Origin: Primula veris
Taxonomy: Eukaryota; Streptophyta; Magnoliopsida; Ericales; Primulaceae
Length of the DNA stretch: 64,000 nucleotides
Assembly: GCA_963682055.1 (NCBI GenBank)
Contig: OY821750.1
Span: 11,348,501-11,412,500, forward strand
Direction: 5' to 3'
Below the pieces are notes generated by a model, which was not told where the DNA came from, ran no database searches, and saw only the letters and a list, made by a program, of their open reading frames with translations. Shown here in pieces: positions 17,810 through 57,806 of the stretch. The number at the start of each line of letters is the position of its first letter. Positions within the stretch are counted from its first letter, which is position 1. A program made the position numbers and the translations under genes.

Positions 17810-17935
17810 GAGGATGGACTTTTAAACTCTTTATTTTTTGAAAAAACGCTGAGAACGTAGATTTAATCTACGGTCTACAGTGGTTCACTGTAAACCGTAA
17901 ATTAAATCTACGGTTTACAGTGTTTTCACATAAAT
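17810..17935 (+). repeat. Left terminal inverted repeat with palindromes
   Basis: The outer 45 bases match the inverted right end. Inside lie two palindromes: CGTAGATTTAATCTACG (17856-17872) and one with 14-base arms, CACTGTAAACCGTA against TACGGTTTACAGTG (17886-17922). The same palindrome words recur in the right end and upstream of the transposase. Confidence 0.88.
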
Positions 17936-21804: not shown

Positions 21805-21920
21805 AGGTACAAACCGTACATTTATTTTACGGTTTGCACAGAATACATGCAAACCGTACATTTAATGTACGGTTTGTATGAAATCTGTACAAACCGTACA
21901 TTAAATGTACGGTTTGTATG
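21805..21920. repeat. Cluster of AAACCGTA/TACGGTTT hairpins
   Basis: Three hairpins in a row, each with arms like ACAAACCGTACATT and AATGTACGGTTTGT. The core AAACCGTA...TACGGTTT is the same word as in the element's terminal repeats, with a different centre (ACATTTAATGT instead of GATTAAATC). Confidence 0.85.
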
Positions 21921-21934: not shown

Positions 21935-22291
21935 TTTAGGGTTTAGGGTTTAGGATTTAGGGTTTAGGGTTTGTAATTTAGGGTTTCTAATTTGTAATTT
22001 AGGGTTTAGGGTTTAGGGTTTAGGATTTAGGGTTTAGGGTTTGTAATTTAGGGTTTAAGGTTTAGGGTTTGTAATTTTGGGTATAGGGTTTGTAATATAG
22101 GGTTTAGGGTTTAGGGTTTGTAATTTAGGGTTTAGGGTTTAGGGTATAGGGTTTAGAGTTTAGGGTTTAGGATTTGTAATTTAGGGTTTAGGGTTTGTAA
22201 TTTGGGTATAGAGTTTGTAATTTAGGGGTTAGGGTTTAGGGTTTTGGGTATAGGGTTTAGGGTTTGTAATTTAGGGTTTAGGGTTTGTAAA
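21935..22291 (+). repeat. Interstitial telomere-like (TTTAGGG) array
   Basis: About 355 bp of TTTAGGG repeats interrupted by TTTGTAA, GGTATAG and GATTTAG variants. On the minus strand, the coding strand of this element, it reads AAACCCTAAACCCTA, the plant telo-box motif, upstream of the transposase and downstream of the mobile-domain gene. It sits inside the transposon, so it is not a chromosome end. Confidence 0.92.
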
Positions 22292-22471: not shown

Positions 22472-24830
22472 TTATTTTTTTTTGTAACGACTAAATGATT
22501 TGAAGTTGGACGTAGAGAGCATCTTTCCCGCCGATGTTAATCTATCCGATGACGGCTCAACAGACTCTTCGATTTCGTTTAGCTCCGTACGCCGTCTCTG
22601 TCGATGCTGCGATTCTGGATACGGAGCACGCTCGTGGGATGTAAGTGCTAATCCGCGACTCCAACTGTCGGTTGAATGCTGACTATGATAATCGAACAGA
22701 ACATCATCCTGAACGTACTCCGACCCAGCAAAAGAAGCACGACGACCATGACCGCTTAAACTCGGACCCGGACCCTGATCTGTAGTCGGGGGTCGACCTC
22801 CAGTCGATCTTCTACCCCTGCTACGCCCGCCGCTACTAGATTCGCCTTCCCCTCTGCCTCTTTCGTCAGGACGCTGACAACTTGAAGCCCTAGTGTAAGT
22901 TATTGGGTCATAACGTAGGTCGTCATCACCATCGTCGTCGTAGTCGTCATCGTCATCCTCCTCATCCGGCTGTTCATCAGCTGACCCATACGGATTCATT
23001 CCCATTTCAGCGAAGTCCTTTCATAGTAAGTCCACTTCCGTTTTCATTTTCGCCCGTTTGAACGATTTGAAATTACGGCGCAATACCACTTTCTGAAAAA
23101 AAAAACCAATAAAAAACGATTTATAAGTATTGAAATATACAAACAGAAAAATAACAATCAAATATTAATGAACTTTAATTAGTTGTTACCATTTTATTGA
23201 ACAACCCCGTATGCTCCCGGAAACCGTGAGATGGCGGGGCAAGTTCAGATGGGTTTATGAAGATGCGGGTCCTCTCTCTATACCATCTCATGTAATCCGG
23301 TGACGTCCCCGTGCCAAATTTGCCGTTAATAAGACGGTTGTGGCGGTCATTCCACACGGTTATAAACTCTTCAAAAAGCAAAGGCCAGTCGTGTTTTTGC
23401 CCAATCCCATATCTTCTATCCTTGCCGTGACCCTTTCTGGGTTTCCAAATATAAGTAGGGACCCGCTGAACAAAACCGAACTGTCTCATGAACCTGTCCG
23501 CGGGGTGGAACTCAATCTTCTCATTACAAATGTCTCAGAGGCACAGAACAATGCCACATATAACGGCCCCGCGTACAGTATTCCGGATACTGATTGAGAT
23601 TCCCGTAAGGTTGCCACACTATCTGTAATCAGCAAAATTATAATATATAAACAAGGGTTTAAAAATACTAGTAATAAATTCTGCGAACATAAGACCAATG
23701 CAAACATATACAACATATAATACGTAAGTTACATATAATACGAAAGTTAAAATTTACCTGTTCAGGCGACATATTGTCAAACTGGTCATGTATGTGGACC
23801 ATATTATGTCCGTAGACATATGGCGTAAGGTTAGTTTGCCTCCAAATCTTCCATCTGTAATATACAAACAAAACCCGATAAACAATAAATATAACCGGCA
23901 GCTAAGTAAATGATAGATGACACAATAAAAAAAAACCACAAATCCAAGATAAAAACTAAATAATATCATACCTGTAACTGAGGGGGAACCTAGGCCAGCC
24001 CTCAGGTGGCTCGATATCTTCCGGCAGCTCTTCACATGGTCTAACCGGCAGTAGTCTGGTAATCGCCCACATATCCAGAAACATCACCGCCCCGCTTACT
24101 CCGTTTGCCTTACAACGTACCAACCTGCATAGATTAGCCTCTAACCAGGCCAGAAGAGCTGATCCCCAACTATACTCAGCACACGTGTCAAAATCCTCCA
24201 GAAATGGCAGAGGCCAGAGTGGAATCTGATCACTGCTCTTATCTGAAAATACATATGCCCCCAGTAATAACAACATGGCAGCCCTAGACTGATATAGCAA
24301 ACGCTCCTCACTAGGATTGGGGGGTAATTCACCAAACGTGTGTAACATCCAATCAAGTCTAACTGTCAGACAGTTTGTATCCACTTGATTGTCAGCCGGT
24401 CTAACACCCAACAAACTCTCTACCATATCTAACCTGCTCGCCCTGTTATCATTCCGCTCCGACCGGGTAACAGCAAGACCATCCACCGTGAGACCAAGCA
24501 TAATCTCTACATCCTGTAAAGATATCCCCATTCTCCACCGACAAAATGGAACGTGTGCGACTCATCACGCCACCTATCAACTAAGGCTGTAAGCAAGCCT
24601 CGGTCTACGGTATAATTACCTATACTGTGAATACCGTAAAAACCAGCCCTAATCATATTTTGAACTACCCTTTCAGGCGTCGGTATCTGCCAACTATAAT
24701 TATAAACCCTAATCTTATTGGCATCTCCTCTACCCGCTTCTCTTCCAGCATCCCAAGTCTGATTAGAAATGTGACCGGTCTGTCGTAAAATACCCAACCT
24801 GCCTTTAATATGTGGACCTGGATCTGTCAT
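22472..24830 (-). pseudogene. Plant mobile domain (MAIN-like) gene in the transposon, frameshifted
   Basis: Minus-strand exons are 24830-23972, 23854-23758, 23622-23190 and 23092-22472, with GT/AG borders and matching phases. The product starts MTDPGPHIKGRLGILR and has the plant-mobile-domain pattern: RWRDESHTFHF, GISLQDVEIMLGLTVDG, AWLEANLCRL, then RWKIWRQTN, VWQPYGN, RFMRQFGFVQRVP and PDYMRWYRERTRIF. The last exon is acidic and then Arg/Ser/Gly-rich low complexity, ending FSRYKKK. Damage: one base lost near 24530 (between HFVGGE and GISLQDV), a second frame change near 23530, and TGA at 23021-23023. The domain is shared by host proteins such as MAIN/MAIL1, which act in silencing and development, and by transposons; its role in elements is unknown. 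The ATG at 24830 is chosen over one at 24947 because the extra upstream residues are repeat translation. Confidence 0.85.
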
Positions 24831-24839
24831 TCTAATTGT

Positions 24840-25620
24840 GATAACCAAATATAACTCGGTTAATGATAACCAAACAATGATAAAATAACCAATTAATAAC
24901 CAATTAATGATAACCAAACAATGATAAAATAACCAATTAATAACCAATTAATGATAACCAAACAATGATAACCAATTAATGATAACCAAACAATGATAAC
25001 TCAATTATAACCAATTAATGATAACCAAACAATCATAACCAAACACATTTAATCATAAACCAAACAATAATAACTCAATTTTTTAATCATAACCAAACAC
25101 ACATTTAATCATAAACCAAACAATAATAACTCAATTTTTTAATCATAACCAAACACACATTTAATCATAAACCAAACAATAATAACTCAATTTTTTAATC
25201 ATAAGCAAACACACATTTAATCATAAACCAAACAATAATAACTCAATTTTTTAATCATAACCAAACACACATTTAATCATAAACCAAACAATAATAACTC
25301 AAATTTTTAATCATAACCAAACACACATTTAATCATAAACCAAACAATAATAACTCAATTTTTTAATCATAACCAAACACACATTTAATCATAAACCAAA
25401 CAATAATAACTCAATTTTTTAATCATAACCAAACACACATTTAATCATAAACCAAACAATAATAACTCAATTTTTTAATCATAACCAAACACACATTTAA
25501 TCATAAACCAAACAATAATAACTCAATTTTTTAATCATAACCAAACACATTTAATCATAAACCAAACAATCATAACTCAATTTTTTAATCATAACCAAAC
25601 ACATTATCAACAATTATCAA
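24840..25620. repeat. Minisatellite upstream of the mobile-domain gene, 56-bp unit
   Basis: About ten near-identical 56-bp units start at 25085, 25141, 25197, 25253, 25309, 25365, 25421, 25477, 25533 and 25587 (AATCATAACCAAACACACAT...). Before them, from 24840, are shorter and less regular ACCAATTAATGATAACCAAAC repeats. All share the word ATAACCAA. The array is immediately 5' of the gene's start on the minus strand. Confidence 0.95.
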
Positions 25621-25649
25621 CAATTGAAATTAACCAAACACATAAAAAA

Positions 25650-25943
25650 AAAATAATGCAAAAATGGGACAAATATCAACAATTATTATAATTAATATAA
25701 ACAAACAAAAAAAAATTATATATAGCTAAGTGAATTATCCATTTGCATATTTTATATATTTTTTCCTATTTTACAAATTGAAATTACAAAAAAAAAAAAA
25801 TAATGCAAAAATGGGACAAATATCAACAATTATTATAATTAATATAAACAAACAACAAACAATTATATATAGCTAAGTGAATAATCAATTTGCATATTTT
25901 ATATATTTTTTCCTATTTTACAAATTGAAATTACACAAAATAA
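25650..25943. repeat. Two tandem copies of a 147-bp unit
   Basis: TAATGCAAAAATGGGACAAA begins at 25654 and again at 25801, and the next 140 bases are nearly the same. It lies between the minisatellite and the right terminal repeat. Confidence 0.9.
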
Positions 25944-26264
25944 ATAATAAATTAGAGAATAAAAGATATACCCTTGAATTATGGATAAATTTGATTGATG
26001 ATTTGGGGTTTTTTGTTAAGAAATTTGATAGGTAATGTGTTTGATTGATTTGGGTGGTTTTTTTGGATGAAAATTGGGGGTTTTTGAGAGAAAGAGAGAG
26101 AATGTAGTATAAAAATTATTATTTTTTTAATAAAAACGTAAGTTTTTGTTTTTCAGGGACCTGCTATGTAATTTTTGCGCAGGGACTGACTGTGTAATTT
26201 CTGAAAATAGGGACTGACTGTGTAATTTCTGCAGAAATTACACAGACCGTAGATTTAATCTACG

Positions 26265-26390
26265 GTTTGAATTAAATTAATACAAACCGTAGATTAAATC
26301 TACGGTTTACAGTGAATCACTGTAAACCGTAGATTTAATCTACGGTTACAGCGTTTTTACAAATAAAATCCAGTTTAAAAAGTCAATCTC
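26265..26390 (-). repeat. Right terminal inverted repeat of the Mutator-like element
   Basis: Inverted, it matches the left end over about 120 bp with roughly 80-85% identity by eye. Palindromes of CCGTAGATTTAATCTACGG type occur at about 26247-26267, 26283-26308 and 26318-26347. The end at 26390 is fixed by the CTGCCAAAT duplication. Confidence 0.88.
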
Positions 26391-26399
26391 CTGCCAAAT
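26391..26399 (+). repeat. Right 9-bp target site duplication
   Basis: CTGCCAAAT, identical to 17801-17809. Confidence 0.92.
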
Positions 26400-27505
26400 A
26401 AGCAGCGGGACTGGGAGTGGGACTTTTTGTAATTTTATTGGTATATCGATATGGATGAGTTAGGATCGGAAACCAACCCATAAATATTCGTATCTCAACC
26501 TGATAAATTTTTAAAGTGAAAAAAAATAATCTCAACCCCGACCCGATAAAAATCGGGACCCGGCTTTTTTTCGGATCCGAATTTTTGGGATCTCATAGGG
26601 TCGGGATAAATTTATCCCGAATCTCCCGACCTATCTTTTTTATTTTGCGACAATTTTATTTTTTAATAACAATTTTCATTTGACAACTCTAAACATGTTA
26701 TTAACACGAAACATAATCCTATTTTGAAAATAACACTACTAATAAATGTAAAAAGAAATTAATTAGTAGAAAAAATAATGTAAAACTATAAATAATTGAG
26801 CAGATAAAAAAATTGATACGTTTTTTTATCAGATTATTTTAGTATTTAGTTTTATTCACACAAACAACAATTATCATACTAAATGAGATACATTATCATT
26901 ATAATTTTTATAATCGAAAAATAATTATCATTTATCTTTTTTGAAGTAATAATATAATTTTTTTAATTTAAGTATATTTTTTATTTTAATAGTTTCATAT
27001 ATTCAAAACTATAAATTTATATTATACTTATTTAATTATAAATAATATATGAAACAAAAAGATTTGTAGCTCATATGGTAGAGTTTTTACATTACATGCT
27101 AGATGTACACTTTTCGATTCTCATCACTTGCATTTGATATAAATTAATTTATATTTTATTGTTGAAATAAAAAAATCATATTATATAATATAAAATAAAA
27201 AATTAATTAAAAATTCAGGTTGGGTCGGCACAGCCGACGAAATCAAAATTGTCATCCGATCCTGAAATTTGTCGGGTCGGAAAATTTCGAATAGAATGCG
27301 GGATGGAACACGAATCGAGTCAGAATTTCGGGATTTTCCCCCAACCCTATATATCCATAAAGATCAATTGTTAATTGGAACACATATTTTTTTTTCTTTT
27401 CGAAATGGGAGGCCAAACTCCCTTTATCAAAAGTAGTACTCAGACTCCAATATTATGAGCCGTTGAATGATTATATAAAATATCAAATCATTATTATATA
27501 ATATA
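26400..27505. other. Non-coding DNA, possible small terminal-inverted-repeat element
   Basis: No gene. Starting near 26449 is TATGGATGAGTTAGGATCGG, and near 27330-27360 the inverted sequence reads TATGGATATATAGGGTTGGG. Both ends are followed inward by CGACCCG/CGGGTCGG-rich patches (26550-26630; 27220-27310). This looks like a degenerate non-autonomous element of about 0.9 kb, but no target duplication is convincing. Confidence 0.4.
27062..27128 (+). ncRNA. tRNA-like fragment (SINE head or tRNA pseudogene)
   Basis: TAGCTCATATGGTAGAG resembles the tRNA A box and D arm, and TTTCGATTCTC, 35-40 bases on, resembles the B box (GGTTCGANTCC). A stable acceptor stem is not visible, so a functional tRNA is unlikely; a tRNA-derived SINE head is possible. 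Confidence 0.4.
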
Positions 27506-27510
27506 GTATC
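27506..27510 (+). repeat. Target duplication GTATC of Copia-type copy 1
   Basis: GTATC precedes the left LTR here and follows the right LTR at 34309-34313. Confidence 0.93.
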
Positions 27511-27725
27511 TGTTGTAGAATATTATCGGACTATTGGGCTTGTACTTTATGGGCCCAAGTGGGCTTATAACCCTACCCCTCTATCTATATAAATAGGGTT
27601 AGAGGTCTTATATTTTACATTCATTCATATACATTCTGATTAATAAAGACCCTGTTGTTGTCTCTCTCTATATTCTCTCTCTATATCTATATACATATAT
27701 ATGTGAGCTAATATGTCACACAACA
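27511..27725 (+). repeat. Left LTR, Copia-type copy 1
   Basis: 215 bp, TGTTGTAG...CACACAACA, containing a TATA-like CTATATAAATAGGG (about 27588) and a polyadenylation-like AATAAAG near 27642. Near-identical partner at 34094-34308. Confidence 0.92.
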
Positions 27726-28941
27726 CGTTATCGGCACTTTGCTCGCAGAGAATAGGATATACGCTCGTGGATATTGGACATTTTTGGTAAACGCACGGAT
27801 ATTGGGTATTTATAAACCTTGAGGTTTATCCGTGTTTTTTTAGGGTTTTGCTATATCGACCTTCACCAACATACCGTACGTAAGGTACCGAATTCAAAAC
27901 TTAATTTATTCCATATATGTGATCGTACGTATTATTTTATGGATAAATAAAGCATGATAAATATACCGTAATATATAATTCACGTGTAAAAGCTAAACTG
28001 CATATTAGGAATAAAATCACACTACATGATAAATTATTCCTTATTGTCTAACATGATCTATCTTGCATGAATTAATCCATGTTAATACACATATGGACCG
28101 TGTGGATAGAAACAGTCTAGTAAATTGTTTGTATGTAAAACGAAATACACCAACATATGATTATGACTTGCCAGATTATTTTTTTTCTTAAAAGATGATG
28201 TTTAATAATATTACCATCTCTGAAATATTCTATTACGGAAAATCATGTGAATTTTTTTATTGATTATGAAACTTGCATGCTAAAACTACCATGTATAGAA
28301 TTATTAATATGGCGATAAACATAGATAATTGATTGATATCTTGTTAGCATAATCATATCTTTTTGATATTATCATATATATAAATATCACATATGCCAGT
28401 AAATTATTGGATTAGATCTAATTGATAATCTTAAATTGATTTGATTTGATATGTTAGAATCTTTATGCATTGATTGATAATCTTAAATTGATTTGATTTG
28501 ATATATTAGAATCTTTATGGATTGATTGATAATCTTAAATTGATTTGTTTATAACATCAAATCTACTGCATGATTAGATATATCCTAAAATATATTTACT
28601 ACCTGTTTATATATATGTGGTTAATCTAGATAGATATTGTCTATATTGTTATTATTATTGTCATATATAAAAAGCGAAAATCGTATATATTCACATTTAA
28701 GTTGGAAAAATTATGAATCTTCCCCAAATAGGCTCACCTATTTGGATACGATGTCTAGGAAAGATAAAGGCGGAAGTCGTTCTCCTAATGAGGTCGGTTT
28801 TTAAGAGGCATTCGTGCCCACCCCCCTCACCGTCTTTCCTGGTCGTGTTCAAATAGAGCTACCGAAAGGGGTTGACTAAATAATAATTTCCCCGAGTGTG
28901 TTTATATAGTGATGTATGTTTCACTGAATTGGTGTTTCAGT

Positions 28942-31900
28942 ATCGACCCGTCATTCGATCAATGAGAACCGATTCACATGAAAAGCAAAACTAATGTTTT
29001 CGAACCTGTCGTTTCGAAAAAAAGTTTGTGCTTGTGCAAACCATAAAATTATAAACCAGTCGTTTTATATGATAAATAATCCGGAACTCCCAACACATGT
29101 TGGATGCCATCTATGATGAGAAAAATCGTAAAACATACTTGCGAAATGGCTGTTTAAATGTTGATTTCAATCCGTCACCACATGTTACTCACCATGATGT
29201 GTGAAAATGTGATGCCCCATTTTTTTTGGATGCCATCTTTGATGAGTAAAACACAAATTTGTTGTTACCATCAGGATGAATGCTAAGGCATTGATTTTAT
29301 TCCGCCGCCACATTTGAGACGTGATGACGTCTATGGTGAACAAATGTCTGAAATTGACATATTGGAGCAATCCTTCACAAAAATACTAGCTTGGAAATTG
29401 CATTCCATAAGCAGTATCGTGAATTTATATTCACCATGTTCCTTTATCGCCAATCTGTTATTGGATAAGAAAATTACCCCGGTGAGTAGTTTTATTGGGT
29501 CAATGGCGAATTGTTTGCCTGATATTAATGCTCTTCGTGTATATTTTTTTTCCACGAATCGAGAACCGAGACAAGTGTTATTTGTCTCGAACTGTCGTGA
29601 TCCTGATGAATCGCCTAGCCAAGCGAGATTTTCGACAATAGTCAAAATCGAAAACTTGTGGCTGTAAGACAGTAATTGAAAGGAACAATATGGCCCGTTG
29701 TCACAAAGCAAGAGATAATGCTCAATGAGGCAACTCTATGCTATAAAGACAAAGGTCATGCACGGTTACTCCTTAAATAGTTCACAACTATTATAAAGGT
29801 GAAAAAAACCGATGCTAATGTGGTTAAAGCTAACTGAAAGGAAACTCTTGAGACCCTCGATTTTGTGGCTCAAATGAGTTAGATATCTTTCTTTATTGAT
29901 TTTGATAAATCATTGAGCCATTTTTTCGCTCATCTGGATTATGTTTTCCATTTGGATTATGATTTTTCCATTTGGACATACTTTTGGATTATGGTTTGCC
30001 TGTTTACGAAATTTCTCGAAATAATTTAAAGTGTTTTGGGCAAATTACTTTGACAAATGTGACCAAATTTTAAATTATGAAATTTTAGGCAATACTTGTG
30101 GGGTAGTTGTTTTTTTTGAAAATAGTGGGTAACAGTGTACCACATAATTTCACCAACTACTCGCCTAAAAGAGTACTCAGTGACAACGATTCTGGACCTG
30201 TCGTTCCAAATCGAAATCTTTGGTAAAGCCAAATTGATTTGTCAAATATGAGGCGTTATACTCCTATAGGTCCTGTCGTACCTTGTTGAGTTATAAAATA
30301 TTCGAGAAAACCAGTGTTATCTGGTAATAGCTCATAAAAGAATTGAAATTTCTTTACATAGCCTCCATTCAATACGACTAAAAGCGTATTTTAGAGGAGT
30401 TGAAATGTCTTTCAAGTGGTTGCTACCACATTCTTTAAAGCATTTAAAGTTACCTTATCATTTCGCCTGTCGTCGAAATGATAAATGTTTAGATGCTAAG
30501 ACATGATTGTCTATACTATCATTCGCCTGTCGTCGATTGATAAGAGCATTTTGATATTGTGGCATTGACCGGATGAGATATTCTCGGGTCAAAAGACGAT
30601 GCTTGATTTATAATCGCATCGTATTTGGATTCTCTTTGAGAATATATTTCGTGATTAATCCGAAATTCATGCCACTAATGCTCACTTTGAAAGACTAATA
30701 TGTGTAAAATCATGAAATGAACTCGTAGAATTCTTGTAAAGAATTGAAGGAGTTATTGTGGACATATCCAACCATAAGACGGACCATAAATATAAATGGT
30801 TATGGTTGATGCATCGACAATATGGTCACATTTTGATGTTGTCCACATAAATGCAGCACTTTCCAAACTTTTAGCCCTATCATTAAGTTGATGGCTCATG
30901 ATCCGGATTATCCTGAAAAGTCTAGTCGACTTGATAATTCCAAAGAGTAAGAATCGAAAATTCGATTTGAATTACTTGAGTTTGGAAATTGAAATTGAAC
31001 ATCCTGTCGATTATGTTCAGACCCAAATGGACTCACGGAAAGTTTGATAATGCGACTGCAAATGGTTGCATGCACTTCTTGGTCTTGCGCACCAAGATTT
31101 ATATTTCTGTGTGGGTTCATGCTATTTTTGCTGCATTGGTCCGTCTGAGGCCATAGTCACTCAAAACACCATATGCGTACCAGCTGGTTACTGGTTATGA
31201 GCCAGAAGTCTCATATTAACGCGTGTTTGGAGTACTTAATTAATATTTTGATTGAGCCGCTATAGCGTTCAAAATATGGACCTCTGAAGGGGACATAAGT
31301 CGATTATGAATCCCATACCTATCATTTTATAGAGTAACCTTGGCAAGCGATCTCTTTACCGCATGATATGCGAAAGTGACATCGCTAAGACTGTTCTCCC
31401 CGTCGTTAGGGGGAGATTTGCACGTTACCGTTGATAAGAAATGACGTGAATTAACGTGGCATAACCCACTCGGTCTTAGCTTGATCCCCAAAACTGCACT
31501 TAGTGATAAGTAAGTGCATAGACTCCCTCAAGTCTAACTAAATGCCAGACGCATTTAATGACTTTATGAGATGTCACGAGATCATTTATACCTGCTACAA
31601 AATGCTTGCAAGGATAGACGTCCATGTCGGACACCGTGTTCCTGTCGTAACACGTTGCTTTGGCCGAACCCGCCAAGCAAAGGACGCTGCCGTCGGCCGT
31701 CAGTCTGTCGTCCTTCCCAAGATACGAGAAAGTTGACCGGTTTCAAATTCGTTCAGCCCCAGAGGTGGTGAACTGAAACTCGTTTGTCGCACGAGATTAT
31801 AAAGGATCTAGGAGATGTGTGATTCCTCCTCATCCTAAGAATCTCGAAATATCTGTCGATCATGATTATCTTAGACGATATTGAAGCGAAACGAGACTGT

Positions 31901-33725
31901 CATTGATTACTTGTTCATATATTCGGTGATGACTGATAATATGAGCAAATTATGACAGAGAACCATGTACCGTTGCCTGAAGTTAACGGAGAATAGACTG
32001 GACTAATGGAAACTTGTATTCCAACTAGGCTCATTAGCGAAAGTGTGTTCAGACCTATAGCTCTAACACCACCAATGTTAAACGAGTTCGTTTATTTGGT
32101 TATTCGTAAGGAAAAGTGATGAGAATAATGAGATTGTAGAATGTTCACCTAGTAGCGCAAGGCTTCTCTCACACCTTGGAATTGATTACGAGATGGTTGA
32201 TTTCCTCGTAATGGACGTCATAACGGTCCCCTACTTTATCAGTTTATTAGTTTTCGAAAAACTGATTATGCAGCATGTGATTGTGGTCACTGTTTTATCT
32301 CTATGAGAATTTAGACAAAGAGATATAGATGAAGGTCCCTGTGTGACTTCATATGCTTTAATCAAGTAGTTCCTGACCACGGAACACGATCTCAATTGAC
32401 TGAGACGTTCACTATATAGATTAATATAATCCGAGGGATGTGGTATACCGCCTAAGTGAGTACTTGATCAGCTTGGGATACTTGAACAAGTATTATGCCC
32501 TTGCGTGTTTTATTATGCAATCCACTTTTTGATTTGCCTTCGAGATGAAGGATCTTGGGAAAGAACGGTAGTGACTCGGCCTGATGATCGAGTCCCATAA
32601 AGATTGAATCTAAGTTCATGATTCAGACTACACCAAGAAGGTGTTATGACGTTTTAGTCATCATGACGCTAAGTCGTCAGATTCTCCCATGATCGTTCGA
32701 TCACTAGACATTGATATAGACCCAATCCGTCCCTGGTGAGATGATGAAGATATATTGAACCATCATGTTCATATCTAAGTACAATAAGCGCATCATTGTA
32801 CTTGGTCTAATGTACTAGGACGAACATCTTGTATGTTGTGAATGATATAGCTCGACACAACATTGCGCTAACACGCTGCCATCGAAATGGCATAAAAGAC
32901 ATTTTCCCATTACCTTAAGGTAACTGTGGATGAGGGCTTGTCTTATCCCATTTTGCGTCATCGAGTGTACCTACCCCATTCGGTACTCGAATTAACGCAA
33001 CCCTTTTTTTGGTTATACCGATGCTGGTTACTTATCAGACCCGCATAAGGGATATTCCTAACATGGTCTGTCTTTACCATTAGGAATAAGGTAATATCTT
33101 GGAGGTCTTGGAATGACTCCAAACGAATCACTCTGGTCTACTCGTGCTCTATGAGACGACTAGAGAGTTTATATGGTTTCGAGCTCGTATTAGCCATATT
33201 TGAATTACATATGCTCTGTCTCACGATTTAGATAAAACACTTGCCTTATTTGAGGACAACTTGTTGTTATCGATCAAGAGCGACATGACTAGATTATGCT
33301 ATTTAGCATTTCTTGCCAAAATAAATCTTCACATATGAAGTTTAAGAGCATCCTGTCGAATGCTCGTTTTATTTCACGTTATATTTTATTGCATACAGTC
33401 GTGTGCAAGGAAATGAAGCATCCAGTCGAATGCTCGTACTCTTTCTTGAAATATGAAATCCTTGCACCTCGTCGTGTGCAAGTGAGGTGGAGCATCCAGG
33501 TGAATGCTTATTGCACTAATTACTACTTAGTCGAAATCCTCGCACCCTGTCGTGTGCAAGTGAGGGGGAGTATCCAGTCGCATGCTCGTGTACTCTTTTT
33601 GTCCTTAGACCAAGGTTTTTTCCCACTGGGTTTTCCTTGGCAAGGTTTTTAGCGAGACGCGTTCCCATTATATCTCACTTAAAATTGCCGAAATTAGGGG
33701 GAGTATCCTGTTGTATACTTCTTAC
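28942..33725 (+). other. Set of hairpins with unlike stems and a shared eight-base loop
   Basis: At least fifteen perfect or near-perfect hairpins have loops CCTGTCGT, CCTGTCGA, CCAGTCGT, CCAGTCGA or close variants. Examples: 28997-29020, stem TTTTCGAA; 29050-29069, TATAAA; 30455-30484, TTATCATTTCG (11 bp); 30517-30542, one mismatch; 31635-31654, CGTGTT; 33346-33365, GAGCAT; 33417-33434, AGCAT; 33461-33482, CTTGCAC. Shorter ones are at 30193-30208 (TGGA) and 30268-30283 (AGGT). Stems are unrelated to each other; loops are not. The same sites are present in copy 2. No known structural or regulatory family explains this that I can name. Confidence 0.8.
31541..33290 (+). pseudogene. Copia polyprotein remnants, copy 1
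   Basis: Around 31545-31640 a short frame reads PDAFNDF, then EIIYT and ARIDV, matching the region just before reverse transcriptase in plant Copia polyproteins. At 33018-33052 DAGYLSDPHKGYS matches the RNase H region, followed by VISWRS at about 33091. Between them no catalytic motif of reverse transcriptase or integrase survives in any frame that I could find. Confidence 0.6.
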
Positions 33726-34093
33726 CACTGTGTACTCTTTTGTCCTTCGACTAGAGGTTTTTCCCACTGGGTTTACTCTAGCAAGGTTTTGATGAGGCAC
33801 CTGTTTTGTGGTTGATTCCCTACTACTACCACTGTTGCACTCTTTTTCCTTCGATCAGAGATTTTCCCATTGGGTTTGCTCCGGCAAGGTTTTGATGAGG
33901 CACACTGTTTTGTGGTTAGTTAATTACATAGAATTTCGGCCTATATCATTCGGCTACACAGTTTCTCCTAGGTACCGGTTTTGTCCCACACTGGGTTTTC
34001 CGTCCCTAAGGTTTTTATGTGTTTAGCATTGCGAATGAACTCGACTCAGATCGACTGCATGAAGACGAAGAATTCAAGACGTCCAAGTGGGAG

Positions 34094-34308
34094 TGTTGTA
34101 GGATATTATTGGACTATTGGGCTTGTACTTTATGGGCCCAAGTGGGCTTATAACCCTACCCCTCTATCTATATAAAGAGGGTTAGGGGTCTTGCATTTTA
34201 CATTCATTCATATACATTCTGATTAATAAAGACCCTATTGTTGTCTCTCTATATATTCTCTCTCTATATCTATATACATATATATGTGAGCTAATATGTC
34301 ACACAACA
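34094..34308 (+). repeat. Right LTR, Copia-type copy 1
   Basis: 215 bp partner of 27511-27725, preceded by AAGTGGGAG and followed by the GTATC duplication at 34309-34313. Confidence 0.92.
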
Positions 34309-34356: not shown

Positions 34357-34820
34357 ATGTCAATCGGATTCTTCCGCTGCGTAATCCCTTTATATATAAT
34401 TTAAACATAAATCAATCGTTACATATTGCCTTGTTTTATTTTCTAATTCTTTTAAAAAATATGTGAAATTTATAAAGTTTTTTATTTAAATTTAAAATAG
34501 TCTCAACTTGGTTTATATATTTTTATTTGGGTTTTATTGTGTTGGGAATGTAGTTTTTAAGTTTACTAAATCATAATTTGTTTTTTATGTAAAATCTTTT
34601 TTTTTATGTAACTTCCGAAGAAAAAAATGTTAGATTTAACTCTCTGCATAATTAAATATAACAAATTAATTTGTTAAACCCTTGTTCATTTATGTCATTT
34701 TTTCTTTAGTTTTAGTCTTTTAGTGTATTTTATATCCATCGTTTGATACTTTGTTGATATATTCAATGGATTCTAAACAAGTAGTCTGGGCACTCTCTTT
34801 ATAAAGGGCCGGGAGTCTGG
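34357..34820 (+). repeat. Segmental duplication arm A, left piece
   Basis: From TGTCAATCGGATTCTTCC on, this parallels 44901-45160 and 46115-46340 (shared TAATTCTTTTAAAAA, TGAAATTTATAAAGTTT, GAAAAAAATGTTAGATTTAA and TATAAAGGG). The Ty3-type element is inserted at its right end after GAGTCTGG. No gene is recognised. Confidence 0.85.
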
Positions 34821-35504
34821 TGACGAGAGAATTTCGGGATCCCTTTGTCCGGGCTCTTAACATCCCCAAAACGGGTTATCCGGGCCTCTGCCAATCAGCA
34901 TTTGACATGCCACCCCGGACCTTAAGAGGCCGAACTGTGTCTACTCCGGCCCAGAGAAGCGTATCGAGTACGCTTCTCTAATTAATGTTGTTACTCCCTT
35001 GGGGGACCCCTCAGGATTTCATCGACGTGGCCCAATCACAAGCCATCAACTGTGGGTCCCGGAAAAGGATTGTACCCTTGTCAGAGTCATAAATGACCTA
35101 ATGCCGTTGGATTAGTACTTGACAATACAGTGATCTAAGGGCTAAGAGATATCTGGATCACACTATAAATACCCCCACTAATACTACTTAGAGGGGGACA
35201 CAGAAAAAGAGCGAGAAGAGAGAGAAAGCTGAAACAACCCGGACTACCCGAACACGACCTGTCATATTCAATACCACGCTTCGTAACCGGAACGACCCCT
35301 CTTACCTTTCAACTACATATTCATCTCTAGTCACCTCCATACTGACTTGATCGTTGGAGAGGGAAAACCTAGTATCGACCCCGGGCCCCTGTTTGTTCCT
35401 TGTCCAGGCACGAGGAGAATCCCGTCACCGAAGCTGACCACCCTGTATGGAGCCGACGCGTGCTGTTAAATAAGCCGAGCCTAGGAAGAAAATTAGGCTC
35501 GCTA
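34821..35504 (+). repeat. Left LTR, Ty3/Tat element
   Basis: 684 bp. It holds a perfect 11-bp-stem hairpin, AGAGAAGCGTA against TACGCTTCTCT (34953-34979), a TATA-like CTATAAATACCCCC near 35163, and near its 3' end a hairpin of CGAGCCTA against TAGGCTCG (35476-35501). Both hairpins are kept in the right LTR. Confidence 0.92.
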
Positions 35505-42881: not shown

Positions 42882-43397
42882 TTTGGCTAAGTGATTGCTG
42901 TATTTACTAAGTATGGGGGAGAGAGAGAGAAAGTGGTTTGCTGTAAAGTTCTAGAGAGAGAAGAAGAGAGTGTAAATGAAATTTTCACTGTGGGTATTTA
43001 TAGACCCCCACCAGAAGGTGAAAAGACATTTACCAGAAGATGAAAAGACAGTAACGACCCACTGCACGAACTCCCACATGAAACCGCCACCACACAATTG
43101 ACGTGCTCTACGTGTACAGCAGGCAGAGACCATCTTCCAAGTGTCACTCAGCAGCCATTTGACTTTAATGGCATTAATGACATTGATGGCATCGAAGAGA
43201 CAGAGACGGCGCCTCATAAAAGCGAGTTAGGCATGCTCCACGTGTAAGAAATCTGCCCCGGTAGGACACGCATCACAAGACGGGCCATGCGGGGGCATCA
43301 CGTACCTCAGGAAGGTTGAAAATGACCGGAGCCCCCGTAAAGAATGAAGACCCTTGCCGACCTCGTCCTTTAACGACGACTCCGGACAGGGAGCTGT
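42882..43397. other. Region between antisense ORF and right LTR
   Basis: On the minus strand this is upstream of the antisense ORF: a GA-rich stretch (42915-42970) and TATTTATAG near 42996 would suit a 5' UTR and TATA box for it, in the opposite direction to the element. On the plus strand it leads into the purine tract GGACAGGGAG before the right LTR. Confidence 0.55.
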
Positions 43398-47667: not shown

Positions 47668-47871
47668 TGTTGTATAATATTATTGGACTCTCGGGCTTGT
47701 ACCTTATGGGCCAAGTGAGCTTGTAACGCTACCCCTCTATAGATGGTTATGGGTCTTGTATTTCACATTCATTCATATACATTCTGATTAATAAAAACTA
47801 TGTTGTTGTTTCTCTTTATATTCTCTCTATATCTATATACATATATATGTGAGCTAATATGTCACACAACA
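47668..47871 (+). repeat. Left LTR, Copia-type copy 2
   Basis: TGTTGTATAATATT...CACACAACA. It is shorter than its partner through small deletions, for example in the CTCTATCTATATAAAG region. Confidence 0.9.
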
Positions 47872-49297
47872 CGTTATCAGCACGATGTTCGCGGAGAATA
47901 GGATATACGCTCGCGGATATTGAAGATTTTTGGTAAACGCAATGATATTGGGTATTTATAAACTTTGATGTTTATCCGGTTTTTTAGAGTTTTGCTATAT
48001 CGACCTTCACCAACATACCGTACGTAAGGTACCGAATTCAAAACTTAATTTATTCAATATATGTGATCGCACGTATTATTTTATGGATAACTAAAACATG
48101 ATCAAACTGTCTATAAAAGCCTATTGATATGTAATATGTATCGTGTACTGTAAAATTGTATTTTTATACCCAAAAAAAAATCAGTAAAAGACATATAATC
48201 GGGTTGTAAATCGGAAATCATGTAATTGTAAAACATGTATTAATCTGTGGGATTAAATCTGTAACAAACTGAAAACCGTAGGACTATTTTGTAATTCGCT
48301 GAAACTATTGACTGCGCATGTTAATTACTAAATGACTAAACTGAAACTTGTCTGAAATTATGGACTGAAGCTGTAATAATGCTGTAAATAGATATATAAT
48401 TTGCTGAAATTACACGGATAGTCCATGTAGTATATTACATGTATAAAAGTCAATATTCGGTCTAAATATCCACTCACAAGCATATATATTTATTAAAAAG
48501 GCAAGTGAATAAAAAAATTGCATGTTAATTGAATAAATTGATATGTTTTCATATAAATTTAATTCATCATATTGCATGATTTAGTTACCATGTATAAAAC
48601 TTACACATAAAAGCAATATATTTGTATAATATTAATTTATATCTTGCTAGTATGAAATTGGTAAATAAAATATATTACTAGCATGCATGATTTAGTTACC
48701 ATGAATAAAAATCTACACATATAGCAGTATAATAATAATATATTGTGTTAGATATTTCTGGTATAACTTTGGTAAATACTAATATAGATTGATTACATTA
48801 ATTTGAATTCCTTATTAGGAAATATGTACTGCCATGTTAGTTAATCGTGAAACAGGTACAATCTATATAATTGATCACTGCCATGTAATATTTATTTACT
48901 GCCATGTGTAAAATATAGTAATTTTCGAAATCATATATTTTCACATTTAAGTTGGAAAAATTATGAACCTTCCCCAAGTAGGCTCACCTATTTGGATACG
49001 ATGTCTAGGAAAGATATAGGCGGAAGTCGATATCCTAATGAGGTCGGGTTTTAAGTGGCATTCGTGCCCTCCACCCTCACCGTCTTTCCTAGTCGTTTTT
49101 CAAGTAGAGCTACCGAAAGGGGTTGACTAAATAATAATTTCCCCGAGTGTGTTTATATAGTGATGTATGTTTCGCCAAATTGGTATTTCAGTATTGACCC
49201 GTCGTTCGATCAATGAGAACCGATTCACATGAGAAGCAAAACTAATGTTTTCGAACCTGTCATTTCGAAAAAAACGTTTGTGCTTGTGCAAACCATA

Positions 49298-49325
49298 AAC
49301 ATATAAACCAGCCGTTTTATATGTT
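49298..49325 (+). other. Hairpin with 10-bp stem and CCAGCCGT loop, copy 2
   Basis: AACATATAAA, loop CCAGCCGT, TTTATATGTT: a perfect 10-bp stem, longer than the 6 bp left at the same site in copy 1 (29050-29069). In copy 2 the sites at 50712-50741 (one G-U pair) and 51615-51636 (TCTCCCCG stem, loop TCGTTA) also fold. Confidence 0.85.
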
Positions 49326-52300
49326 AAATAATCCAGAACTCCCAACACATGTTGGATGCCATCTATGATGAGAAAAATCGTAAAACATACTTGCAAAATG
49401 ATTGTTTAAACGTTGATTTCAATCCGTCACCACATGTTACTCACCCTGATGTGTGAAAATGTGATGCCAAATTTTTTTTTTGGATGCCATCTTTGATGAG
49501 TAAAACACGAGTTTGTTGTTACCCTCAGAATGAATGCTAAGGCATTGATTTTATTCCGCCGCCACATTTGAGACGTGATGACGTCTATGGTGAACAAATG
49601 TCTGAAATTGACATATTGGAGCAATCCTTCACCAAAATACTAGCTTGGAAATTGTATTCCATAAGTAGTATCGTGAATTTATATTTACCATGTTCCTTTA
49701 TCGCCCATCTGTTATTGGATAAGAAAATTTCCCCGGTGAGTAGTTTTAATCCTATTGGGACAATGGCGAATAGTTTGCCTGATATTAATGCTCTTCGTGT
49801 ATATTTTTTTTCCACGAATCGATAACCGAGACAAGTGTTATTTTTCTTGAACTGTCGCGATCCCGATGAATCTCCTAGCCAAGCGAGATTTTAGACAATC
49901 GTCAAAATCAAAAACCTGTAGCTCCAAGACAGTAATTGAAAGGAACAATATGGCCCGTTGTCACAAAGCAAGAGATAATGCTCAAGGAGCCAACTCTATG
50001 CTATAAAGACAAAGGTCATGCACGGTTACTCCTTAAATAGTTCACAACTACTATAAAGGTGGAAAAACCGATGCTAATGTGGTTAAAGTTAATTGAAAGG
50101 AAACTCTTGAGACCCCCGATTTTGTAGCTCAAATGAGTTTGATACATTTCTTTATTGATTTTGATAAATCATTGAGCCATTTTTTCGCTCATCTGGATTA
50201 TGTTTTTCCATTTGGATTATGATTTTTCCATTTGGACATACTTTTGGATTATGGTTTGTCTGTTTACGAAATTTCTCGAAATAATTTAAAGTGTTTTGAG
50301 CAAATTGCTTTGACAAATGTGACCAACTTTAAATTATGAAATTTTAGGCAATACTTGTGGGGTAGTTGATTTTTTTAGAAATAGTGGGTAACAGCGTACC
50401 ACATAATTTCATCAACTATTTTCCTAAAATAGTACTCAGTGAAAACGATTTTGGACCTGTCGTTCCAAATCAAAATCTTTGGTAAAACCAAATAGATTTG
50501 TCAAATATGAGGTCTTATAGTCATGTAGGTCCTGCCGTACCTTATTGAGTTAATAAAATATTCGAGAAAACCAGTGTTATCTGGTAATAGCTCATGAAAA
50601 AATTAAAATTTCTTTACATAGCCTCTATTCAATACGACCAAAAACGTATTTTAGAGGAGTTGAAATGTCTTTCAAGTGGTGCTACCACATTCCTCAAAGC
50701 ATTTAAAGTTACCTTATCATTTTGCCTGTCGTCGAAATGATAAATGATTTAGATGCTAAGACATGATTGTCTATACTATCATTCGCCTGTCTTCGATTGA
50801 TAAGAGCATTTTGATATTGTGGCATTGACCGGATGAGATATTCCCGAGTCAAAAGACGATGCTTGATTTATAATCGCATCGCATTTGGATTCTCTTTGAG
50901 GATATATTTCGTGATTAATCCGAAATTCATGCCACTAATGCTCACCTTGAAAGACTAGTATGTGTAAAGATCACGAAAAGTACTCGTAGAATTCTTATAA
51001 AGAATTGAAAGAGTTGTTGTGGACTTATCCAACCATAAGACGGACCATAAATATAAATAGTTATGGTTGATGCATCGACAATAAGGTCACATGATTATTG
51101 TAGTCCACAGAAATGCAGTATTTCCCAAACTTTTAGCCCTATCATTAAGTTGATGGCTCATGATCCTGATTATCCTGAAAAGTCTAGTCAGCTTGATAAC
51201 TTGAGTTTGGAAATTGAATTTGAACATCATGTCGATTATGTTCAGACCCAAATGGACTCACGGAAAGTTTGATGATGCGACTGCAAATGGTTGCACGCAC
51301 TTCTTGGTCTTGCGCATCAAGATTTATATTTTCGGATGGGGTCATGCTATTTTGCTGTATTTGTCCGTCTGAGGCCCATAGTCACTCAAAACACTAAATG
51401 CGTACCAGTTGGTTACTGGTTATGAGCCAGACGCCTCATATGAACGCGTGTTTGAGTGCTTAATATTTTGATTGAGCCTCTATAGCGTTCAAAATATGGA
51501 CCTCTGAAGGGGACATAAGTTGATTATGAATCCCCTGCCTATCATTTGATAGAGTAACCTTGGCAAGCGATCTCTTTACCGCATGATATGCGAAAGTGAC
51601 ATCGCTAAGACTATTCTCCCCGTCGTTACGGGGAGATTTTCACGTTACCGTTGATAAGAAACGACGTGAAGTAACATGGCATAACCCACTCAGTCTTAGC
51701 TTGATCCCCAAAACTGCACTTAGTGATAAGTAAGTGCATAGACTCCCTCAAGTCTAACTAAATGCCAAATGCATTTAATGACTTTATGAGATGTCACGAG
51801 ATCATTTATACCTGCTGCAAAATGCTTGCAAGGATAGACGTCCCTGTCGGACGCCGTGCTCCTGTCGTAACACGTTGCTTTGGCCGAACCCGCCAAGCAA
51901 AGGACGCTGCCGTCGGCCGTCGGCCGTCATTCTGTCGTCCTTTCCAAGATATGAGGAAGTTGACCGGTTGTTAATTCGTTCAGCCCCAGAGGTGGTGAAC
52001 TGAAACTCGTTCGTCGTACGAGATTATAAAGGATCTAGGAGATGTGTTATTCCTCTTCATCCTGAGAATCTTGAAATATCTGTCGATCATGATATCTTAG
52101 AGGATATTAAAGCGAAACGAGAATGTCAGTGATTACTTGTTCATATAATCGGTGACGACTGATAATATGAACAAATTATGACAGAGAACCATGTACCGTT
52201 GCCTGAAATCAATGTAGAATAGACTGGACTAATGGAAACTTGCAATCCAAGTAGACTCCTTAGCGAAAGTGTGTTCGGACCTATAGCTCCAACACCATCA

Positions 52301-53773
52301 ATGTTAAACAACTTCGTTTATTTGGTTATTCGTAAGGAAAAGTGATGAGAAAAATTGAGATTGTAGAATGCTCGCCTAGTAGCGCAACCCTGATATAGAC
52401 CCAGTCCGTCCCTGATTAGACGATGAAGAGATATTGAACCATGATGTTCATATCTAAGTACAATAAGCGCATCATTGTACTTGGTCTAATGTGCTAGGAC
52501 GAACATCTTGTCTGCTGTGAATGGTATAGCTCGACACAGCATCGCGCTAACACGCTGCCATCGAAATGGCATAAAAGACATTTTCCCATTACCTTAAGGT
52601 AACTGTGGATGAGGGCTTGTCTTATCCCATTTTGTATCATCGAGTGTACCTACCCCATTCGGTACTCGAATTAACGCAACCCTTTTTCGGTTATACCGAT
52701 ACTGGTTACTTATCAGACCCGCATAAAGGATATTCCTAACATGGTCCGTCTTTACCATTAGGAATAAGGCAATATCTTGGAGGTCTTGGAATGACTCCAA
52801 ACGAATAACTCTGATCTACTCATGCTCTATGAGACGACTAGAGAGTGTATATGGCTTCAAGCTCGTATTAGCCATATTTGAATTACATATGCTTTGTCTC
52901 ACGATCCAGATAAAACACTTGCCTTATTTGAGGACAACTTGTTGTTATCGATCAAGAGCGACATGACTAGATTATGCTATTTAGCATTTCTTGCCAAAAT
53001 AAATCTTCACATATGAAGTTTAAGAGCATCCTGTCGAATGCTCGTTTTATTTCATGTTATATTTTCTTGCATACAGTCGTGTGCAAGGAAATGAAGCATC
53101 CAGTCGAATGCTCGTACTCTTTCTTGAAATATGAAATCCTTACACCTCGTCGTGTGCAAGTGAGGTGGAGCATCCAGGTGAATGCTTATTGCACTAATTA
53201 CTACTTAGTCGAAATCCTCGCACCCTGTCGTGTGCAAGTGAGGGGGAGCATCCAGTCTCATGCTCGTGTACTCTTTTTTTCCTTAGACCAAGGTTTTTTT
53301 CCCAAGTGGGTTTTCCTTGGCAAGGTTTTTAGCGAGACACGTTTCCATTATATCTCACTTAAGATTGCCGAAATTAGGGGGAGTATCCTGTTGTATAATT
53401 CTTACCACTATGTACTCTTTTGTCCTTCGACTAGAGGTTTTTCCCACTGGATTTACTCTAGCAAGGTTTTGATGAGACACCTGTTTTGTGGTTGATCCCT
53501 ACTACTACCATTGTTGCACTCTTTTTCCTTCGATCGGAGATTTTCCCATTGGGTTTGCTCTGACAAGGTTTTAATGAGACACACTGTTTTATGGTTAGTT
53601 ACTTACATGATATTTCGGCTTATATCATTCGGCTACACAGTTTCTCTTAGGTACCGGTTTTGTTCCACACTGAGTTTTTCGGCCCTAAGATTTTTATGTG
53701 TTTAGCACTGCGAATGAACTCGACTCAGATCTATTGCATGAAGACGAAGAATTCAAGACGTCCAAATGGGGAG

Positions 53774-53995
53774 TGTTGTATGATATTATTAGACTCTTGG
53801 GCTTGTATTTTATGGGTCCAAGTGGGCTTGTAACCCTACCCCTCTATCTATATAAAGATGGTTAGGGGTCTTGTATTTCACATTCATTCATATACATTCT
53901 GACTAATAAAGACGCTGTTGTTGTCTCTCTCTATATTCTCCCTCTACATCTATATACATATATATATGAGCTAATATGTCACACAACACACAACA
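53774..53995 (+). repeat. Right LTR, Copia-type copy 2
   Basis: 222 bp, preceded by AAATGGGGAG. The end carries an extra ACACAACA unit (CACACAACACACAACA) before the GTGTA duplication. Confidence 0.9.
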
Positions 53996-54000
53996 GTGTA

Positions 54001-54706: not shown

Positions 54707-54746
<40 letters not shown>

Positions 54747-57700: not shown

Positions 57701-57806
57701 TTTTGAATGTTTGAGATTTATGTTATCTTATGGTATTGTTTTTCCTACACCAGAACCACGTGCCTTGTTTTTTGTTAGGTTTTTTTGTGAAAAGTCAAAA
57801 TCATGC
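54001..57806. other. Non-coding DNA with a possible solo LTR
   Basis: This is AT-rich. A TGTAACATCC at 55021 and GGGCTGTTACA ending at 56819 resemble the two ends of a Ty3-type LTR with inverted termini, and the GACTCACCC motif at 56615 fits. No adjacent target duplication is seen, so it is only a candidate. Minus-strand frames at 56790-57077 show no domain. Confidence 0.45.
54710..54744. repeat. (TA)n microsatellite
   Basis: About 17 uninterrupted TA units. Confidence 0.95.

Follow-up and report, generated by a model that had tools for sequence, protein, structure and literature searches.

The interior of a large LTR retrotransposon from a 64,000-nucleotide stretch of the Primula veris genome (the window) contains 22 small hairpins (h1–h22) that carry one type of loop, with the consensus CCNGNYGW, on stems that mostly differ from site to site. 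The pairing around the loop is confined to the sense strand, and on those branches of the family tree that represent replicating lineages, the stems and the invariant loop positions have changed less often than expected. We tentatively propose, at somewhat less than an even chance, that selection has acted on the sense RNA to present one recognition loop many times over, the likeliest reader being a Gag protein supplied in trans.

A retrotransposon family without recognised coding capacity

Copy 1 of the element (27511..34308, + strand; located by self-BLAST, with the ends read from the sequence) is a complete LTR retrotransposon flanked on either side by the 5-bp target duplication GTATC. Its 5' LTR (27511..27725, +) and 3' LTR (34094..34308, +), both delimited by self-BLAST, are 96.3% identical; a primer-binding-site region, CGTTATCGGCAC (27726..27737, +), is named from its position directly 3' of the 5' LTR, and a purine-rich tract, read in the sequence, precedes the 3' LTR (34081..34093, +). 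Copy 2 (47668..53989, +; self-BLAST), with the target duplication GTGTA, belongs to the same family and retains the hairpin set of copy 1 in a more decayed state. The family is abundant, with 1,717 matches to the LTR end plus primer site in the plant genome at no more than two mismatches.

Both copies have LTR pairs with TG...CA ends and a 5-bp target duplication, and a long internal domain without recognised coding capacity, so that the element is LARD-like. The longest stop-free piece comprises 134 amino acids in copy 1 and 174 in copy 2. Among the 50 stop-free pieces of at least 55 amino acids in the two copies, 10 were scanned and none reached the Pfam cut-off, three giving weak matches (E 0.017–0.89); a coding remnant was therefore rejected as a reading of the interior. 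An element of this kind should depend on proteins made elsewhere. Assignment to TRIMs was rejected because the internal domain is not nearly absent (the element is 6.8 kb long, with 215-bp LTRs), and retrozymes, which have a hammerhead ribozyme in the LTRs, as well as other known RNA families were rejected because no Rfam family reaches the gathering score within the window.

An array of hairpins with one loop

The sequence-only reading had reported fifteen or more hairpins with a shared octamer loop; the catalogue of the copy 1 interior extends this to 22, all on the + strand and each present in 30 or 31 of the 31 aligned copies, and the loop is better written as CCNGNYGW. The array starts with h1 (28942..28959; loop CCCGTCGT in most copies), h2 (28997..29020; loop CCTGTCGT, stem of 8 bp), h3 (29049..29070; loop CCAGTCGT, with a perfect 6 bp in copy 1 at 29050–29069) and h4 (29597..29614; loop CCCGATGA or CCTGATGA, with C-G/U-G alternation within the stem). 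Runs of 4 bp are found in h5 (30193..30208; loop CCTGTCGT) and h6 (30268..30283; loop CCTGTCGT or CCTGCCGT). The longest stem, 11 bp, belongs to h7 (30455..30484; loop CCTGTCGT) and is related to that of h8 (30517..30542; loop CCTGTCGT), which spans nine positions with one T-T mismatch. Then follow h9 (30996..31019), where CCTGTCGA and TT stand ahead of the right arm, h10 (31196..31215; loop CCAGAAGT or CCAGACGC), h11 (31395..31416; a 7-bp stem with CCCGTCGT placed off-centre), h12 (31539..31557; loop CCAGACG), h13 (31635..31654; loop CCTGTCGT) and h14 (32573..32594; loop CCTGATGA, closed by a G-U pair). Within h15–h21 (33346..33587), two hairpin types recur, one with GAGCAT-like stems (at 33346, 33417, 33490 and 33568) and one with TTGCAC-like stems (at 33389, 33462 and 33540, with a C-A mismatch in the stem at 33540); h22 (33701..33720; loop CCTGTTGT or CCGGTTGT) closes the array.

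The five stems singled out at the outset are all present with the lengths given then: 11 bp at 30455–30484, 8 bp at 28997–29020, 7 bp at 33461–33482, and 6 bp at 31635–31654 and 33346–33365. The claim that the stems are unrelated holds for about 15 of them by eye, the remainder being apparent duplicates (h7/h8; h15/17/19/21/22; h16/18/20). Nor is the pairing perfect throughout: the T-T mismatch of h8 is found in 31 of 31 copies and the C-A mismatch of h20 in 30 of 31, and one right-arm base of h7 is absent in 12 of 31 aligned copies.

Pairing follows the motif and the sense strand

The exact octamer CCWGTCGW occurs at 11 sites on the + strand of the copy 1 interior, 10 of which are flanked by a Watson-Crick run of at least 4 bp and seven by a run of at least 5 bp (register shift of up to 2 permitted). 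Of the 88 arm positions at these sites, 65 are paired, compared with a mean of 26.7 and a maximum of 53 in 2000 rounds in which the right arms were re-dealt, so the expectation that the flanks pair better than randomised arms is borne out. With at most one mismatch to the octamer, there are 19 + strand sites in the copy 1 interior, 12 with a run of at least 4 bp, and five on the − strand, none with such a run; the respective numbers for copy 2 are 19 with 11, and four with none. For CCNGNYGN, arms of at least 4 bp accompany 16 of 23 sense-strand sites in copy 1 (0/3 on the opposite strand) and 11 of 22 in copy 2 (0/1), as against 2 of 120 sites in other sequence; the motif is thus not equally paired in unrelated DNA. 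Likewise, the octamer with at most one mismatch and a stem of at least 4 bp, counted on both strands, was found at 10/24 and 7/23 sites in the two copies and at 0/32, 0/36 and 0/48 sites elsewhere, in 36, 42 and 51 kb. The packaged strand of LTR elements is the sense strand, and it is in this strand that the many stem-loops with one loop motif are found, as in dispersed packaging signals.

When loops of any kind on 5-bp stems are grouped by similarity, the largest group numbers 10 in copy 1 and 7 in copy 2, and did not exceed 4 in 200 dinucleotide shuffles per copy; in five control stretches left unshuffled, it numbered 3, 6, 5, 2 and 13, the last consisting of AAATAT loops in the AT-rich 54000–60400 region, so that set size alone is not unique to the copies. 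Perfect stems of at least 7 bp with any loop number 19 in the copy 1 interior, compared with a shuffle mean of 5.7. The raw density of such stems in copy 1, 15 in 28001–32000, is matched elsewhere in the window, with 15 in 24001–28000 and 24 in 52001–56000. The fold-energy scan yields only a moderate signal in the copies, present on both strands, with mean z between −0.98 and −1.22, compared with 0.08 to −1.15 in other window parts.

Substitutions in replicating lineages

Substitutions were mapped on a tree of 30 copies, those nearest to copy 1, and the numbers are small; internal branches represent replicating lineages and terminal branches represent changes after insertion. Expected counts were matched for base and methylation context, and indels, including the shared 1-base deletion in h7, were left out. 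L020 was excluded as a duplicate of L018. L031 and L032 were considered as an 89% subfamily for covariation between subfamilies and rejected: their flanks align, which makes them one old insertion, duplicated. The differences between these two, taken as neutral decay, amount to 0.076 per column in motif loops, 0.035 in motif stems and 0.048 outside, none significant, and both were excluded from later counts.

On internal branches, the stems of h1–h14 have accumulated 8 changes compared with 20.5 expected (P = 0.015–0.021), and those of h5–h13, in 35 copies, 3 compared with 15.3 (P = 0.003–0.004). Whole loops are not conserved; position 3 has changed many times and positions 1, 2, 4 and 7 few times. 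For these four positions, a class picked after the loops had been seen, there are 8 internal changes compared with 17.8 expected (P about 0.04), and for the remaining loop positions, 22 compared with 8.9; stems and positions 1, 2, 4 and 7 together show 26 compared with 50 (P about 0.01). An unmatched loop-position test (P = 0.0004) was set aside in favour of these context-matched tests, as it is confounded by the faster change of C and G after insertion.

The kind of change points in the same direction. Inner-stem changes kept or broke sense-strand pairing in a ratio of 9/2 on internal branches and 39/53 on terminal ones (P = 0.022), and C>T changes, which give G-U in the sense strand, outnumber G>A by 7:0 internally, compared with 26:25 terminally (P = 0.016). 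Random tie-breaking left the tree results unaltered; with a neighbour-joining tree, the C>T:G>A ratio is 8:0 (P = 0.016) and the test of kept versus broken pairing falls to P = 0.09. When shared variants are counted without a tree, the strand bias is absent (C>T 10, G>A 7).

The depletion is not uniform along the array. It is absent from the stems of h15–h22 (10/38 vs 517/2022) and, for all 22 hairpins, marginal on the ratio (P = 0.07–0.08; P = 0.21 with the neighbour-joining tree). With stems selected by rule across the entire element, the Fisher test is not significant (39/205 vs 545/2225, P = 0.18), and shift tests give P of 0.11 and 0.011. Because stems with other loops are also low on internal branches (12 changes compared with 24.8 expected; ratio P 0.08–0.26), and motif stems are low after insertion (112 compared with 140.5 in matched columns), part of the deficit may reflect the choice of stems. 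Of the two explanations offered by the sequence-only reading, selection of the RNA to display a repeated loop gains support from the deficit in stems and invariant loop positions and from the C>T bias without G>A.

Candidate readers of the loop

Under the proposed explanation, the sense transcript would expose about 22 small hairpins, in which the sole role of the stem would be to keep the loop open, leaving the stem sequence free. One protein would read CCNGNYGW at C1, C2, G4 and G7; this reader would probably be Gag from an autonomous Copia element, in which case the many sites would jointly favour the parasite RNA in packaging into virus-like particles. The broader evolutionary scenario, a non-coding retrotransposon interior that evolved into more than 20 recognition hairpins of mostly independent origin and serves as a packaging cassette outcompeting its helper for Gag, is possible and more speculative.

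A sample of 20 primer sites, drawn from contig C1 and confined to the CAG variant, revealed no autonomous element: 18 run into family sequence, and the other two into a host-like gene (by reading) and an opposite-strand Copia. Twelve RVT_2 elements, of 150 listed from 6658 candidates, were rejected as partners, their best match to the family 3' end being an AT-rich piece of 37 bp with E 0.009. A tandem gag-bearing unit (L073) was rejected as well, because its primer site differs and it lacks hairpins of this type. A query with a diverged copy yielded only family members among the matches listed (31 scored of 4644 candidates), and a pattern scan of viral contigs gave no match.

The same array might be read not by Gag but by a host protein, whether one involved in RNA export or stability or a silencing or decay factor that the array would sequester as a decoy. 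All results on the array fit this explanation equally well, the RNA of the plant Copia element Evade is reportedly stabilised by RNA structure (PMC12501189), and the decoy principle is seen in bacterial Csr/Rsm RNAs (PMC4005645). The data indicate no particular host protein, and more than 20 sites would seem a high number if the role lay in export or stability; we consider a host reader rather unlikely.

A purely mutational origin, in which fold-back or template switching during reverse transcription repeatedly placed the octamer together with an inverted left flank, is improbable. One loop in one orientation on unrelated stems fits strand-specific copying, and other perfect hairpins likewise exceed shuffles, but this origin predicts neither the depletion of changes on replicating branches, nor the 7:0 excess of C>T over G>A, nor the variable loop position 3 next to stable positions 1, 2, 4 and 7. 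Insertion of this type, the first of the two explanations offered at the outset, may still be how the hairpins arose, each being present in 30 or 31 of 31 aligned copies and no older relative with an empty site, devoid of octamer and right arm, having been found. It does not itself predict that the hairpins stay intact.

Action of the hairpins in single-stranded plus-strand cDNA, during reverse transcription or integration, appears quite improbable: this cDNA has the same sequence as the RNA and allows G-T wobble, so that the present data do not separate the two, but its single-stranded phase is brief, and we know of no cDNA step that needs more than 20 sites. Chance folding of an AT-rich repeat would fit the moderate fold energies of the copies, the large similar-loop set in an AT-rich control and a raw hairpin density no higher than in some other window parts, but has a minimal probability, being largely refuted by the shuffle, re-deal, strand and outside-sequence controls on the CCNGNYGW-type loop.

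Comparison with known systems

The initial claim that no feature of this form has been described stands for retrotransposons, among which no comparable hairpin array was found in the matches listed from the literature searched; it does not extend to RNA viruses and Csr/Rsm RNAs, where stem-loops with a shared motif are described. LARDs, such as Sukkula, resemble the element in having LTRs, a protein-less core and an assumed reliance on foreign proteins; the accessible parts of the literature searched mention a repeated one-loop hairpin for none of them. The 215-bp LTRs of the element are unlike those of LARDs, which are much longer. BARE2 of barley is a Copia element that produces no Gag of its own, its RNA being packaged in BARE1 particles; it is BARE1-like save for a gag deletion, and the portion of the source available does not mention a hairpin array (PMC3735527).

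Dispersed stem-loops with a common coat-protein recognition motif are described, in the excerpts available, for MS2 and hepatitis B pregenomic RNA (PMC6281560), and multiple stem-loops with a coat-protein motif for STNV-1, where their in vivo role is disputed (PMC6475782). These packaging signals share with the element many stem-loops along one RNA with a common motif, but belong to viral genomes, whereas the element is a non-coding parasite RNA with a stricter loop, known here from sequence. CsrB/RsmZ-type RNAs also display one motif several times on a single RNA, optimally in an ANGGAX hexaloop borne by a stem, and bind one protein (PMC4005645). They are bacterial regulatory RNAs with a GGA motif, another purpose and no common descent with the element, whose membership among them was rejected because CCNGNYGW contains no GGA.

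Implications

Little is understood of how LTR elements that encode no protein come to be chosen for packaging, and even for yeast Ty1, the mechanism of RNA selection by Gag is said to be unclear (PMC8396678); the present array bears on this question. With about 22 loops per element in a family with some 1,700 primer-site matches, it offers a concrete bait for the reader protein, and every copy is a natural record of the hairpin changes tolerated in a replicating lineage. If the proposed explanation is true, this would be, as far as the literature searched shows, the first retrotransposon described with a genome of the dispersed-packaging-signal type, and a non-viral case of dispersed hairpin signals in which binding and evolutionary constraint would be directly comparable.

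An LTR element family lacking long reading frames

Copy 1 (27511–34308, + strand) is flanked by GTATC on both sides and carries LTRs at 27511–27725 (5') and 34094–34308 (3') that are 96.3% identical. The primer-site region CGTTATCGGCAC lies directly 3' of the 5' LTR, and just upstream of the 3' LTR there is a purine tract. Copy 2 (47668–53989, GTGTA at both flanks) is 92–95% identical to copy 1 over the aligned interior parts. The longest stop-free pieces span 134 aa (copy 1) and 174 aa (copy 2); none of the 10 stop-free pieces scanned (out of 50) reaches the Pfam cut-off, with weak matches in three, and no Rfam family reaches the gathering score within the window. Across the genome (436.5 Mb in 34 contigs), the LTR end plus primer site, with at most two mismatches, yields 1,717 matches, compared with 0 for the reversed-pattern control. 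In a sample of 20 such sites, all from contig C1 and all of the CAG variant of the primer site, family sequence appears within the 400 bases read at 17 and further in at one more; the remaining two correspond to an opposite-strand Copia element and a gene read as host-like. The family is high-copy and LARD-like (large retrotransposon derivative). The 5' part of the copy 1 interior (27962–28677) does not align to the matching part of copy 2, sampled family copies have differing 5' parts upstream of one common core, and ~550 bp of copy 1 (32161–32711) lack a counterpart in copy 2.

Several other features were noted in the window and the genome. A 692-bp direct repeat (34811–35502 and 43389–44079, 94.9% identity) borders the GC-rich stretch at 36–44 kb, which together probably make up another LTR element just past copy 1. 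A degenerate, telomere-like interstitial TTTAGGG array lies at 21935–22290, and three separate 40-bp tandem arrays (17856–17934, 21807–21920 and 26235–26347) have related-looking, partly palindromic units with CGTA/TACG. At G000 C1:2541875–2543375, a family primer site lies ~2–3 kb from an exon of what we take to be a biotin-carboxyl-carrier-protein-like gene. Many open frames of ~680–790 aa with a gag domain are found at G000 C3:23713490–23721216 and similar places, some in tandem with a spacing of 3,601 bp; one gag-bearing tandem unit (L073) has a TGGTATCAGAGC primer site and no hairpin of the copy 1/copy 2 type.

One loop on many stems

The copy 1 interior contains 19 perfect stems of at least 7 bp (loops 3–12), where 40 shuffles average 5.7 and never exceed 11, and 28942–31720 contains 13 versus an average of 2.0; the raw density of perfect stems is equalled elsewhere in the window. 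Look-alike loops on stems of at least 5 bp form sets of up to 10 in copy 1 and 7 in copy 2, against a maximum of 4 in 200 shuffles of each copy; an AT-rich control stretch has a larger set, 13 AAATAT loops. Exact CCWGTCGW occurs 11 times on the sense strand of copy 1, and at 10 of these the arms form a stem run of at least 4. When one mismatch is allowed, 12 of 19 sense-strand sites are paired, compared with 0 of 5 on the opposite strand. Among the commonest loops of the 22 hairpins (h1–h22) in 30 copies, with h11 entered one base off, C1 is found in 21, C2 in 22, G4 in 21 and G7 in 21, and position 3 can be T, A, C or G, hence the consensus CCNGNYGW; a C2–G7 pair could form, leaving a four-base tip. 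CCNGNYGN has arms of at least 4 (Watson–Crick plus G-U) at 16 of 23 sense-strand sites and 0 of 3 opposite-strand sites of copy 1 (28678–33725), 11 of 22 and 0 of 1 in copy 2, 2 of 65 in the rest of the window and 0 of 55 in other loci (78 kb). Among the seven short-armed sites of copy 1, three are solitary and four (30526, 31003, 31399 and 31545) fall within h8, h9, h11 and h12, where the pairing is shifted in register or interrupted by a mismatch. The octamer is therefore enriched as a hairpin loop and hardly in any other setting.

The INDEPENDENCE of the stems was judged by eye: h7 is related to h8, GAGCAT/GAGTAT-type stems are common to h15, h17, h19, h21 and h22, and TTGCAC-type stems to h16, h18 and h20, most of h15–h22 lying inside a 78-bp tandem array. 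Removing related stems leaves ~15 without mutual resemblance. Of 31 aligned copies, 30 or all 31 contain any given hairpin. A T-T mismatch is fixed in h8, 30 copies share a C-A mismatch in h20, and in 12 copies the right arm of h7 is one base short.

Constraint on replicating branches

Selection was assessed on the copies nearest to copy 1 (best 35 of 5142 candidates, 92–97% identical to it), which are young, so that most differences postdate insertion. Base substitutions, the class of change covered here and in the strand tests, were split by parsimony into internal (while the lineage replicated) and terminal (after insertion) on a tree of 30 (copy 1, copy 2 and 28 loci), leaving out L020, L031 and L032 as duplicates; the flanks align within the pairs L031/L032 and L018/L020, which are segmental duplications, not independent insertions. 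Because methylated C/G sites change far more after insertion, target columns were matched to outside columns by base and CG/CHG/CHH context.

Internal changes at the invariant loop positions (1, 2, 4 and 7) number 8 versus 17.8 expected (P about 0.04), and positions 3, 5, 6 and 8 show an excess (22 versus 8.9). Internal stem changes number 8 versus 20.5 in h1–h14 (P 0.015–0.021) and 18 versus 32.3 in h1–h22 overall (P 0.03 by count, 0.08 by ratio); invariant positions and all stems combined give 26 versus 50.4 (P 0.0016 by count, 0.0076 by ratio; 0.009–0.014 in repeats that broke ties at random or used a neighbour-joining tree). For h5–h13, tested on 35 copies (the 30 plus five more), the stems have 3 internal changes versus 15.3 (P 0.003–0.004), all at the outer base of h8, with one extra inner change, in a column tallied under the h12 loop, turning G-C into G-U; the invariant loop positions of h5–h13 alone are not significant (5 versus 10.0, P 0.11–0.17). 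Taken by themselves, the h15–h22 stems are not depleted of changes (10 internal/38 terminal versus 517/2022 outside), and rule-chosen stems across the element give Fisher P = 0.18 (shift tests, P 0.11 by ratio, 0.011 by count). Stems with other loops, including the long perfect hairpins at 29567–29589, 31495–31518, 32185–32212 and 32777–32803, have 12 internal changes versus 24.8 (ratio P 0.08–0.26, not significant). Terminal changes in motif stems are also somewhat fewer than in matched columns (112 versus 140.5), which may reflect the way the stems were picked. The evidence for constraint on the hairpins, the strand tests below included, is consistent but of moderate strength.

At inner stem positions, internal changes keep sense-strand pairing in 9 cases and break it in 2, compared with 39 and 53 among terminal changes (P = 0.022; 0.09 with the neighbour-joining tree). 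In the sense strand, C>T yields G-U, which pairs, and G>A yields A-C, which does not; the C>T:G>A ratio is 7:0 internally versus 26:25 terminally (P = 0.016), and 8:0 internally with the neighbour-joining tree (P = 0.016). In hairpins carrying other loops the ratio is not significantly skewed (4:2 versus 14:18, P = 0.40). A plain tally of shared stem variants (C>T 10, G>A 7) counts against selection for the hairpins, as do the Fisher result for rule-chosen stems and the shortfall of terminal changes in motif stems.

A possible recognition array

Repeated shared-loop hairpins are otherwise familiar from viruses and bacterial regulatory RNAs. No retrotransposon with such hairpins is among the matches listed in the open PMC literature, a body outside which most subscription papers and all preprints lie. 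Dispersed stem-loops with a common coat-protein motif are a proposed assembly mode of several RNA viruses (PMC6281560), which, like this family, present one motif on many stem-loops; for STNV-1, the in vivo weight of such signals has been disputed (PMC6475782).

Free stems, fixed loop letters, restriction to the sense strand and many sites are the features expected if a single binding protein recognises the hairpins. A host protein could be the reader instead of an element-derived one, a less likely alternative, and action of the hairpins in plus-strand cDNA would be less likely again. For recognition by an element-derived protein, the putative binder would be the Gag of a helper element, the obvious candidate for an LTR element that lacks its own proteins. 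Packaging by the Gag of its relative is reported for the Gag-less Copia element BARE2 (PMC3735527). What the analysis shows is the structure read from sequence, the loop consensus and the constraint; binding by a protein, the identity of that protein as Gag and a gain in packaging are inferred from these. The proposed benefit of the hairpins to the family would be an advantage in packaging.
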